Source: Actinomycetes bacterium (GTDB lineage Bacteria; Actinomycetota; Acidimicrobiia; Acidimicrobiales; Palsa-688). From it: a DNA stretch of 37,648 nucleotides. Below are positions 33,759-37,327 of this stretch, one piece after another. The notes under the pieces were generated by a model. The model did not search any database. It had not been told where the DNA came from and was given only the letters and a program-made list of their open reading frames with translations. The position numbers were made by a program, and so were the translations under genes. The stretch covers positions 1,782 to 39,429 of the forward strand of contig JAJZMF010000005.1 of NCBI GenBank assembly GCA_021850325.1. Reading direction: 5' to 3'. Each line of letters starts with the position of its first letter. Within the stretch, counting starts at the first letter, position 1.

Positions 33759-34418
33759 TCAGTAGTCCTCAGGGGGCACCAGGCGCCGTTGGATGGCCCA
33801 GCGGGTGAGCTGGTGACGGTTCGAGAGCTGCAACTTACGGAGCACGGCTGACACATGGCTCTCCACCGTCTTCACCGAGATGTAGAGCTCCCGGGCCACC
33901 TCCTTGTAGGCGTAGCCCCGGGCTATGAGACGGAGCACGTCCCGCTCGCGCCCGGTCAGCTGGTCCAGCTCGTCACCCAGGTGCACGCTCACCGGCTCCG
34001 GGGACCCGGCGAAGGCGTCGAGCACGAAGCCGGCCAGGCGAGGCGAGAACACGGCGTCGCCAGCAGCCACGGTCTCCAGTGCGTCGAGCAGTTCCGGCGT
34101 CGAGATCGTCTTGGTCACGTAACCCCTGGCCCCCGCCCGGATGGCCTCGATGACGTCCTCGGCCGCATCGGACACCGACAGGGCAAGGAACCTGACCCCG
34201 GGCGCCACTGCCAGGACCTGGCGGACCACCTCCGGCCCACCCCCGTCGGGCATGTGGACGTCCACGAGCACCACGTCGGGCGACGACCCGAGCACCCCGG
34301 CGACGGCCCCGGCCACGTCCCCCGACTCGCCCACGACCCGCACGCGCCCGGTAGCCGACAGTTCGTGGCGCACCCCGGCGCGGAACAACTGGTGGTCGTC
34401 GACCAGGAACACGTCCAT
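33759..34418 (-). CDS. NarL/LuxR-family response regulator (LiaR-like)
   Basis: 219 residues from ATG 34418, with GGGGGG upstream; the longer frame to 34484 overlaps the kinase. The receiver domain has Asp53 (VLVDVHMPDGG) and LVDDHQLFRAG. The C-terminal LuxR HTH contains LTGRERDVLRLIARGYAYKEVA and SVKTVESHVSAVLRKL. It lies 38 nt after the PspC-kinase and is its likely partner. Confidence 0.95.
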   Translation of the reverse strand: MDVFLVDDHQLFRAGVRHELSATGRVRVVGESGDVAGAVAGVLGSSPDVVLVDVHMPDGGGPEVVRQVLAVAPGVRFLALSVSDAAEDVIEAIRAGARGYVTKTISTPELLDALETVAAGDAVFSPRLAGFVLDAFAGSPEPVSVHLGDELDQLTGRERDVLRLIARGYAYKEVARELYISVKTVESHVSAVLRKLQLSNRHQLTRWAIQRRLVPPEDY

Positions 34419-34456
34419 GGGCTGCCCCCCCGGCAAGCCTGCTCCGGGCCCTGGGC

Positions 34457-35650
34457 TCACGTCGCCCTGCCCCGGGGCACCCACAACGAGACCTCCGTCC
34501 CCTCACCCGGCGCGCTCCTGACGCTGGCCGTCCCCCCGTTGCGGCGGGCACGGCCGAGCACGGACTCGGCCAGGCCCCGGCGGTCGGGGGCCACCCGGGA
34601 GGGGTCGAAGCCCCGCCCCCTGTCCCGCACGAACACCGATACCGAGCTCTCCTCCACCTCGGCGTAGACCGACACGACCTCGGCGCCCGACCACTTAGCC
34701 GCATTGACAGCGGCTTCCCGGGCTGCCGCGACCACGGCCCGTAGCCCGTCGTTGTCGAGCGGCACATCGCCCACGGTCACCACGTCCACTCGGAGCCCAT
34801 GGTCCTGCTCGACCTCCTGCTGTACGGAGCGCAGGGCCTGTACCAGGGTCTCCGCCCCACCGGCTGCCGGTGGGGCGTCCGGCCCACCGTGGTCGAACAG
34901 CCAGGTGCGCAACTGGCGTTCCTGTGCTCTCGCCAGGCGCTGCACCTGGCCGGGGTCGGAGGCGGTCCGCTGTATCAGGGCCAGGGTCTGCAGCACGGAA
35001 TCATGCAGGTGGGCGGCCATCTCCGCCCGCTCCTCGGCCCGCGCCCTCTGCCGGCGCTCAGCCGCCAGGTCCCGCCCCAGGCGCAACCACCAGGGGGCGA
35101 GGACGAGCGAGACGCCACCGACCACGCCCACTGCGGCGAGGGCCACGAGCAGGTCGGCGCGGTTGAGGTGCCTGGGCGCCAGGAGCGTCGAGGTCCCGGC
35201 CACCACCAGTACCAGGCCTGTGACCAGGCGCAGGAGGGCAAAGGCGAACCTGCGACGGGTCGGCACGGCTCCGCCCGCCGCGCTCAGGAGACCGGCAGCC
35301 CGGTGGAGCGCCGCCCGGTCGGCCGCACCTGCGTGCCGCCACACCACGACGCCAAGGGAGGCAGCGACGGCGCCCGGGAGGAGGGCGGCGAGAGGCCCGG
35401 GCAGGCCGACCACCGTCCCGGCCACCATGAGCGCTCCCAACATGCTCGCCGCGGCCGCAGTCAGCCCGATCGTCCGGCCGTCCGCCAGTGCCGACCGGTA
35501 GAGAGGTGGCCCTCCCCCTTCGGGCGGCACGACCAGCCAGGCAGCCAGGTAGAGCGCGATGCCGATGCCACCGCAGAAGCTGAGCGCCACGAAGGCGGCC
35601 CGGGCGGCCAGCACGTCGACACCCAGCTTGCCGGCCGCCAGGGGCGCCAC
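34457..35650 (-). CDS. Histidine kinase with N-terminal PspC domain (LiaS/DesK-like)
   Basis: 397 residues from GTG 35650. Its first 45 residues (LGVDVLAARAAFVALSFCGG, LYLAAWLVVPPEG) are the end of a PspC membrane domain. More hydrophobic helices follow (65-105, 136-190). HisKA_3 has HLHDSVLQTL (His216), and the ATPase has AAREAAVNAAKWS, VRDRGRGFDP and RRGLAESVLGRARRNGG. The PspC similarity continues upstream of GTG 35650 (RPSEGRVLAGV), so the true start probably lies further out. It is transcribed divergently from a PspC/LiaF-like gene. Confidence 0.88.
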   Translation of the reverse strand: MAPLAAGKLGVDVLAARAAFVALSFCGGIGIALYLAAWLVVPPEGGGPPLYRSALADGRTIGLTAAAASMLGALMVAGTVVGLPGPLAALLPGAVAASLGVVVWRHAGAADRAALHRAAGLLSAAGGAVPTRRRFAFALLRLVTGLVLVVAGTSTLLAPRHLNRADLLVALAAVGVVGGVSLVLAPWWLRLGRDLAAERRQRARAEERAEMAAHLHDSVLQTLALIQRTASDPGQVQRLARAQERQLRTWLFDHGGPDAPPAAGGAETLVQALRSVQQEVEQDHGLRVDVVTVGDVPLDNDGLRAVVAAAREAAVNAAKWSGAEVVSVYAEVEESSVSVFVRDRGRGFDPSRVAPDRRGLAESVLGRARRNGGTASVRSAPGEGTEVSLWVPRGRAT

Positions 35651-36010
35651 GCCGGCCAGTACCCGGCCTTCGGACGGCCTCTGCCAGGCCTCCCAGGGCC
35701 GTGACCGCCCGGCTCCTGCACCGCCCGGGCCGGCCCGCTGGCGCCGCCCGGTTACCGCGCCGCCCGGTGCAGCACCTGCGCCGCCGGCCCCGGGCGGGGC
35801 AGGAGGGGACGGCTGGCCCGCGCCAACCGGTTCACCGCCGCTGCAACTGGCCGCACGATAAGCGATGGCCCCATCGTCGCGCCGGACCGGTCCCCTGCGT
35901 CACCAGGCCGGCCCCGGGCCCGTCCCGGGCCCGGCAGCGACACCGGGTCAGGGTCGCAACGGGGTGTTCCCCGGTACCCTGACGGCTCCGGGCGCACGAA
36001 GATCGCAGGT
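35651..36010. other. Divergent intergenic region between the two PspC genes
   Basis: The kinase frame stays open from 35650 out to TGA at 35902-35900 (83 codons), encoding a Gly/Ala/Pro-rich stretch and then the start of PspC. It contains no ATG, GTG or TTG. The promoters of both operons should lie here, but none could be picked out with confidence. Confidence 0.5.
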
Positions 36011-37327
36011 ATGCAAGAAGGCCACCTCCCTCCCTTCCCTCCGGGGCCTGCCCGCACGCGGCCGCCAGCCGGCGGCCCAGGACGGCGGCTGCACCGCAGC
36101 ACCCACAACCGCCGCATCGGCGGCGTCATCGGAGGTCTGGCCGAGTACCTCGGCATGGACGCCACCGCCCTGCGCGTGGGCTATGTCTTCGTCTCGGCGC
36201 TCTTCCTGGCCGGCATCGGTGGCGTCGTCGCCTACCTGGTCGCATGGGCCGTGCTGCCGGACGAGCTCGGTCGGCCCTACGGCCCCGGTGGCTGGGCACC
36301 CCAGGCCCCGTCAGCCGGCACCCAGGGGCCCCAGGTGGGAGCGCCCTGGGGGGGCATGTTCTCCGGCCGCCCGTGGCAGGACTGGGACGTCCGGGCCCGG
36401 TCCTGGGCGCTGGTCCTGGGAACTGTTGCCCTGGCCATCATCTGGTCGGTCGGTCCCGGCCCGGGCTTTTCCTGGCCCGCCGGGCCCGTGCTCGCAGTGG
36501 CCATCTGGTGGTTCGTCGCCCGGCGCCGACGCGGCTGGGTGGCGCCGCGGCCTCGGTACTGGGCACACCCGGGGGCCTCCTACCCGGGCAGCCCGTACCC
36601 GGGGGCGCCGCACGCGGGCGCAGAGCAGGCCGGCTGGACCGGCTCCGGAACGGTCCCCCGGCCCGGCCCTGCCGCGCCGGGGGAGTGGGTGGGCGACCAG
36701 GCGCCGGGCCCTGTGGCCGGCGACGGCGAGGACGGGCACCCGGGCGGCCCTCGGGTGACCGCTGGGAGGGCCGACCCCGACGACGCCGACCGGCGCGCCG
36801 CTCAGGCAGCCGCGGCCGGCTGGGCCGCCGACCAGCTTGCTGCGGCGGGCGTACCCGCCCAACCACCTGCCGGCCCGCCGCCCCCGGCCCGTCAGCGGTC
36901 GCGCCACCCCGTGAGCCTCGTCCTCGCCCTCTTCATGGGCCTGGTCCTCCTCGGCGTGGTGTCCCTCGTCGGCCTCACGCTGGTAAGCGGGTCCTCCCTG
37001 CGAGGCGGTTACGGTTACGCCCGCTTTGCACCGGCCAGCTTGTCCCAGGTCCGAGCCGACTACAGGCTCGGGGTGGGAAGGCTGCAGGTCGACCTGTCCG
37101 GCCTACGGGCCCCGGCCACCTACCGGCCCCGCACGGTGGACCTCACGGTCGGGGTGGGCAGGCTCGACGTACTGGTGCCCCCCGGCCTCCCCGTCTATGT
37201 CACCGCTGCCAGTACGGGCTTGGGCAGGTCCCAGGTTGGCGTCCCTGAGTCCCGGCGCCCCGTGCTCTACATCGACGCCCATGTCGGCCTGGGAGCGTTG
37301 GACATCGTCCCCTCACCCGCTCCCTGA
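36011..37327 (+). CDS. PspC-domain membrane protein with LiaF-like C-terminal domain
   Basis: 438 residues from ATG 36011. The PspC domain (about 30-85: RRIGGVIGGLAEYLGMDATA, FLAGIGGVVAYLVAWAVLPDE) is followed by a Pro/Gly-rich stretch, two helices (about 135-170), a further linker and a last helix (about 300-325). The C-terminal 110 residues (YRLGVGRLQVDLSGL, DLTVGVGRLDVLVPPGLPVYV, HVGLGALDI) match the beta-stranded domain of LiaF/DUF2154 proteins. In Firmicutes LiaF holds LiaS inactive until the envelope is stressed. The divergent PspC-kinase suggests the same role here. Confidence 0.85.
   Translation: MQEGHLPPFPPGPARTRPPAGGPGRRLHRSTHNRRIGGVIGGLAEYLGMDATALRVGYVFVSALFLAGIGGVVAYLVAWAVLPDELGRPYGPGGWAPQAPSAGTQGPQVGAPWGGMFSGRPWQDWDVRARSWALVLGTVALAIIWSVGPGPGFSWPAGPVLAVAIWWFVARRRRGWVAPRPRYWAHPGASYPGSPYPGAPHAGAEQAGWTGSGTVPRPGPAAPGEWVGDQAPGPVAGDGEDGHPGGPRVTAGRADPDDADRRAAQAAAAGWAADQLAAAGVPAQPPAGPPPPARQRSRHPVSLVLALFMGLVLLGVVSLVGLTLVSGSSLRGGYGYARFAPASLSQVRADYRLGVGRLQVDLSGLRAPATYRPRTVDLTVGVGRLDVLVPPGLPVYVTAASTGLGRSQVGVPESRRPVLYIDAHVGLGALDIVPSPAP

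Follow-up and report, generated by a model that had tools for sequence, protein, structure and literature searches.

The best start of the PspC-histidine kinase gene described here, which encodes a membrane-stress sensor in a sparsely studied actinobacterial group, is an ATC codon at positions 35864-35866 on the minus strand of the window (the whole stretch of 37,648 nucleotides that was analysed), and the same non-canonical codon is kept at this place in 25 of the 29 clade members that could be assessed. We propose, with a probability of about three in four, that the kinase mRNA is leaderless, that transcription would begin at or next to A 35866 and that the first codon, AUC, would be read by the initiator tRNA. 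This proposal is drawn from sequence comparison.

The window lies on contig C11 of a genome assembled into 49 contigs (3,177,012 bases) and has a G+C content of approximately 70%. From ATC 35866 to the TGA that ends at 34457, the proposed full coding sequence (34457-35866, minus strand) encodes 469 amino acids, an assignment based on its frame and length, Pfam matches and ten aligned orthologues. A PspC domain (PF04024, 35519-35683) and a HATPase_c domain (PF02518, 34472-34744) sit in this one frame on the minus strand, so that PspC is fused to a histidine kinase. Downstream of the kinase on the same strand is its partner, a LuxR-type response regulator frame (provisionally 33759-34484) with Pfam matches to both Response_reg and GerE, that is, a receiver and a helix-turn-helix domain. 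On the other side lies a divergent gene (36011-37327, plus strand; open reading frame list and Pfam) with an N-terminal PspC domain (PF04024). No Pfam match to LiaI-LiaF-TM, Toastrack or PspA was found at E 0.001 in the three frames searched. The kinase as a query matched 16 of 32 genomes of the family (E ≤ 1e-60), and the alignment of ten orthologues as a query matched 107 of 397 genomes of the order (E ≤ 1e-50).

An earlier note on this DNA had reported that the kinase frame lacks an ordinary start, and direct reading bears this out: in the minus-strand frame 35899-34457 there is no ATG, GTG or TTG over the 83 codons from the in-frame stop TGA (35900-35902), which is 11 codons before the ATC, to a GTG at 35648-35650, the first ordinary start codon of the frame. 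The note had also allowed only rare options such as ATC or CTG. A scan of the interval for CTG, ATT, ATC and ATA found ATC 35866-35864 and CTG 35659-35657 and no other near-cognate codon. Both the GTG and the CTG lie within PspC: PF04024 matches frame residues 73-127 (35683-35519; profile positions 4-58 of 58, E 6e-13), so that the similarity does extend upstream of GTG 35650, as had been noticed, and a start there would remove approximately 11 of the 55 matched residues. We rejected GTG 35650 and CTG 35659 as starts, as conserved PspC residues lie upstream of both. A start at GTG 35650 is unlikely because these upstream residues are conserved in ten orthologues and because, in close pairs of relatives, coding signals reach back to the ATC. 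An ATG at 35872-35874 was correctly described as opening a different frame, which ends at TAA 35754-35752. On base composition alone, the chance of 83 codons without ATG, GTG or TTG is approximately 5.6%, so this single gene proves little, and the weight of the argument lies with its relatives.

We aligned ten orthologues from the family, including that of the window (L001), upstream of PspC; the nine others are 60-72% identical to the window's kinase protein. A -10-like box, CGCGACGAT (35873-35881, minus strand), with the core GACGAT at 35878-35873, ends 6 nt before the ATC and is conserved in relatives; it would act as a promoter element. The core reads GACnAT in the close orthologues and CACCAT in L008. 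The codon that follows the box after 6 or 7 nt is ATC in eight of the ten (L001, L004, L005, L006, L007, L009, L011 and L012) and GTG in the other two (L008 and L010). In all ten this codon is in frame with PspC, at nine distinct distances of 147 to 396 nt and with no in-frame stop in between, and in seven of the ten at least one other frame contains stops. No Shine-Dalgarno sequence shared among the aligned orthologues was seen by eye. The counterpart of ATG 35874, which overlaps the box, shares the kinase frame in L008, L009 and L011 but not in L001, L004, L005 and L006, and gives way to ATA in L007 and L012; in L010 it is followed directly by a TAA of the kinase frame, two codons ahead of the GTG. 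This ATG therefore cannot be the common start, being out of frame, ATA or blocked by TAA in several orthologues.

The comparison of homologous 5' ends that the earlier note had suggested was extended to a tree of 98 kinases (rows of at least 110 bits and at least 180 residues; a substitution model without mixture), in which 33 form one clade with a support of 100/100 (SH-aLRT 99 in a quick tree). Four members of the clade (L016, L018, L134 and L144) have too little upstream sequence and were left out, which leaves 29 that are assessable. All 29 carry a start-like codon 6-7 nt after the box in the kinase frame: ATC in 25, ATA in one (L149), GTG in two (L008 and L010) and ATG in one (L021). A binomial probability for 29 of 29 carries no weight in the argument, since it would take related rows to be independent. 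In three of the 25 ATC loci (L141, L143 and L146) the box is a variant, and the pattern was relaxed once these had been inspected; a stricter pattern gives 22 in-frame ATC codons within 150 codons, with L014 lying further out. For L011 we used the frame of L129, which is the same place. Start-like codons that follow such a box in the other frames number three in the whole clade. Members with ATC span six families of the order, as judged by group codes, and at least five changes between ATC and other known states are needed on the tree.

As a control for reading frame, we counted the triplets located 6-7 nt after the strict box [TC]Gn[CG]AYnAT and no more than 150 codons upstream of PspC in distinct loci, after removing thirteen duplicates. 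The kinase frame was located in 146 of 150 loci; some low-scoring ones may represent the PspC of the divergent gene, and loci below 200 bits were excluded, except for one set of short loci. Among 78 triplets in the kinase frame, ATC occurred 22 times, GTG 18 times, ATG 13 times and any other codon at most three times, whereas ATC made up three of the 121 triplets in the other two frames (Fisher p 1.1e-7, a guide only, as related rows are not independent). The ATC thus follows the reading frame and is more than a component of a DNA motif.

How far an ordinary start could replace the ATC differs among the clade members. In seven of the 29 there is no ATG, GTG or TTG at all from the upstream stop to the PspC motif; six of these have ATC (L001, L006, L007, L014, L137 and L152) and one has ATA (L149). 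Downstream of the codon, none of the three is present in 12 of the 26 ATC or ATA members. In 19 of these 26, some ATG, GTG or TTG is found elsewhere in the interval, so that, taken singly, an ordinary start is possible for each of those 19. L001, L004, L005, L007, L017 and L137 have an in-frame stop 4-11 codons ahead of the codon (four in L004, L005 and L007), and in L149 a stop is found one codon before the ATA. We considered an ATG approximately 12 codons before the ATC, which is present in several clade members, as a common start and rejected it, because in L001, L004, L005, L007, L017, L137 and L149 these stops intervene and no ATG, GTG or TTG lies between stop and codon. The ATA of L149, 73 codons before PspC, follows the box in an interval with no ordinary start.

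The stretch between the ATC and PspC (35684-35863 in the window, minus strand) is rich in proline, glycine and alanine, and in the relatives it has features of coding sequence. It contains no in-frame stop in any of the 29 clade members; over their 1,851 codons the kinase frame has none, whereas the other two have 6 and 14, and its length takes 24 distinct values. G+C contents at the three codon positions are 0.783, 0.758 and 0.814 across the 29 members. Substitutions in five disjoint close pairs number 45 at the first codon position, 40 at the second and 76 at the third (p 8e-4). Gap lengths are 39 nt for L004/L005 and 39, 24 and 12 nt for L011/L012; between L006 and L007 the alignment has one gap of 5 nt and one of 16 nt, and the frame is preserved only if both are taken together. 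The coding signal is weak in the window's own stretch, with G+C contents of 0.82, 0.85 and 0.72 by codon position and no excess of third-position substitutions relative to L004.

Outside the clade of 33 kinases, ATG or GTG is usual at the place after the box. For this wider comparison the best 80 of 325 places were kept, and among 65 more distant relatives drawn from them, 30 have a similar box that precedes an in-frame ATG, GTG or TTG by 5-8 nt, a count made without a shuffled control, for which the out-of-frame counts of the frame control stand in. Several relatives deviate from this arrangement. L024, which lies outside the main clade, has CATCAT followed after 7 nt by an in-frame ATC, 23 codons before PspC, perhaps of independent origin. 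In L157 and L159 the codon 6 nt after the box is ACC and the next is TTG or GTG, respectively, so the start seems to have shifted three bases downstream. L104 has CACCAT and, after 6 nt, ATT followed directly by GTG, 15 codons before PspC; its start could be either codon. L060 (upstream of 3001) is a more distant relative without an in-frame ATG, GTG or TTG before PspC, in which a GACCAT box lies 5 nt before a GTG of another frame, and it may reflect a frameshift, an assembly error or another odd start.

We surveyed a 337-kb sample of this genome, made up of 300 kb from contigs C17 and C43 together with the window and containing 183 predicted genes, for -10 elements close to start codons. In 19 of the 183 genes a TANNNT precedes the start by 6 or 7 nt (11 and 8 genes, respectively), whereas each other spacing from 1 to 19 nt is found in 0 to 3 genes. 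Because of this sharp peak, leaderless genes seem to be common in the window's genome. Near coding onsets in the sample, the codons that follow TANNNT include 19 GTG (2.3 expected) and 9 ATG (0.6 expected). ATC was not enriched in this position in the 337-kb sample (1 found, 0.57 expected), which leaves a general usage of ATC starts in this genome unsupported by the sample. In the whole genome, the box pattern occurs exactly 6 nt before ATC three times, compared with none for a reversed-pattern control: once at the kinase, once inside a longer open frame and once at the opening of a 27-codon frame. Forty-three tRNA genes were found, including one tRNA-Ile(GAU) and three tRNA-Met(CAU). A special initiator tRNA for AUC was considered and rejected, as none was present among the 43, nor was a second isoleucine (GAU) tRNA.

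The divergent promoter region (35905-35973) contains GGG-N-CCC motifs, one towards each gene. We located CGGGGAACACCCCG (35960-35973) in the aligned region as a possible operator copy nearer the divergent gene, and GGGACGGGCCC (35916-35926) as a possible copy upstream of the kinase box. Of the 29 clade members, 24 carry GGG-N4-6-CCY at a distance of 22-62 nt upstream of the codon; 200 shuffles that preserve base composition only gave 4.45 on average and 11 at most. This element may be an operator of the neighbouring response regulator.

Taken together, comparison supports the frame, the box, the conserved codon and the coding signals. On the leaderless reading, a promoter with the -10-like element GACGAT (35878-35873) would drive the kinase gene, transcription would begin at or beside A 35866 to give an mRNA without a leader, and the initiator tRNA would decode the first codon, AUC, as (formyl)methionine; translation would then pass through the stretch of approximately 57 residues and on into PspC and the kinase. 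As a weak initiator, AUC would hold the kinase at a low, fixed yield relative to the response regulator. We infer where transcription starts, that the initiator tRNA decodes the codon and that the yield is low; a low yield is likely because IF3 discriminates against triplets other than AUG, GUG and UUG, AUC included (PMC4611024).

An AUC start could also be used on a leadered mRNA that comes from a promoter further upstream, with the box acting as an operator or another element. The window's GACGAT departs from TANNNT, which would fit such an arrangement, and AUC is known as a rare start of leadered mRNAs (PMC9094748, PMC4611024). That GACGAT is also without the TG present in many relatives counts against the leaderless reading. 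We nevertheless consider a leadered AUC start unlikely, as the spacing of 6-7 nt between box and codon is that of the leaderless peak in this genome, the box is placed likewise before ATG or GTG in relatives, and a Shine-Dalgarno sequence shared by orthologues was not seen by eye. Very unlikely, in our judgement, is that translation begins downstream of the ATC, at CTG 35659 or GTG 35650 in the window, and leaves the N-terminal stretch as an untranslated leader. No ordinary start codon precedes GTG 35650 within this open frame, and the poor codon signature of the window's own stretch would agree with a leader, but conserved PspC residues lie upstream of both codons, relatives keep the frame of the stretch over 24 distinct lengths with no stops, and close pairs show the third-position excess.

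Two further readings were weighed. Translation could start at ATG 35874 and shift by one base into the kinase frame, since L008, L009 and L011 have this ATG in frame and, in L009 and L011, one more base separates it from the ATC. This ATG overlaps the box and is not common to the orthologues: L007 and L012 have ATA instead, and in L010 an in-frame TAA comes directly after it. We therefore rejected it as a start and judge such a shift highly improbable, nor does the link to the kinase frame through an indel, which the earlier note had raised, hold up. Still less credible is that the window's gene is broken or that an assembly error hides an ordinary start. The odd G+C by codon position in the window's stretch would fit damage of this kind, but an intact kinase is encoded, with 60-72% identity to nine orthologues, and an assembly error is unlikely because separately assembled genomes carry the same ATC at the same place. 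Among a non-standard start, an error or frameshift and a truncated domain, the options that had been left standing, the non-standard start gives the best fit.

A broader idea, which we put forward tentatively and at somewhat less than even odds, is that these actinobacteria can initiate at a 5'-terminal AUC, against the AUG/GUG rule for leaderless mRNAs, and have long retained this in a single gene as an inherent restraint on a membrane-stress kinase, perhaps aided by some property of their ribosomes or initiation factors. The rules for leaderless start codons rest on few model species, and a deeply conserved AUC start, if true, would mean that the AUG/GUG rule is not general. Gene finders limited to ATG, GTG and TTG would then mis-start this kinase, and the gene would offer a natural test case of what allows ribosomes to initiate on an AUC with no leader in front of it.

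In E. coli, infC reportedly starts at AUU, which is said to limit or regulate its expression on a leadered mRNA under autocontrol by IF3. The kinase would resemble infC in having a non-canonical AUN start that limits or regulates expression, and differ from it in that the codon is AUC, the mRNA is apparently leaderless and the product is a sensor kinase. ATC starts have reportedly been found by proteomics in Deinococcus deserti, which is likewise said to be rich in leaderless mRNAs; if a leaderless ATC start has already been demonstrated there, the novelty of the present case is smaller. No description of a conserved leaderless AUC start was recognised in the literature searched, as far as the available texts extend.

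The gene system itself is already known; the conserved ATC as a start would be what is new. A Lia-like PspC-histidine kinase system without PspA and with this gene arrangement has been described in Actinobacteria (PMC11237479), and the window matches it in the PspC-kinase fusion, the receiver-HTH partner and the divergent PspC gene across a shared promoter region; the available portion of that description is silent on the start codon, which is the point added here. AUC is listed among rare starts (PMC9094748), and leaderless mRNAs are described as depending on AUG, with GUG efficient in some species (PMC5622118, PMC9031893). For leaderless translation in mycobacteria, it is both necessary and sufficient that the mRNA begins with ATG or GTG, and a leaderless AUC would be surprising because ATC served as the negative control for leaderless initiation in Mycobacterium smegmatis (PMC4633059). 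As in the mycobacterial leaderless genes, the start codon of the kinase would stand directly behind a -10 element with no leader; the spacing of 6 nt agrees with this, but the sequence GACGAT does not conform to TANNNT. Those genes use ATG or GTG only (PMC4633059), whereas the kinase has ATC here, as do 25 of the 29 clade members with the window's own included.
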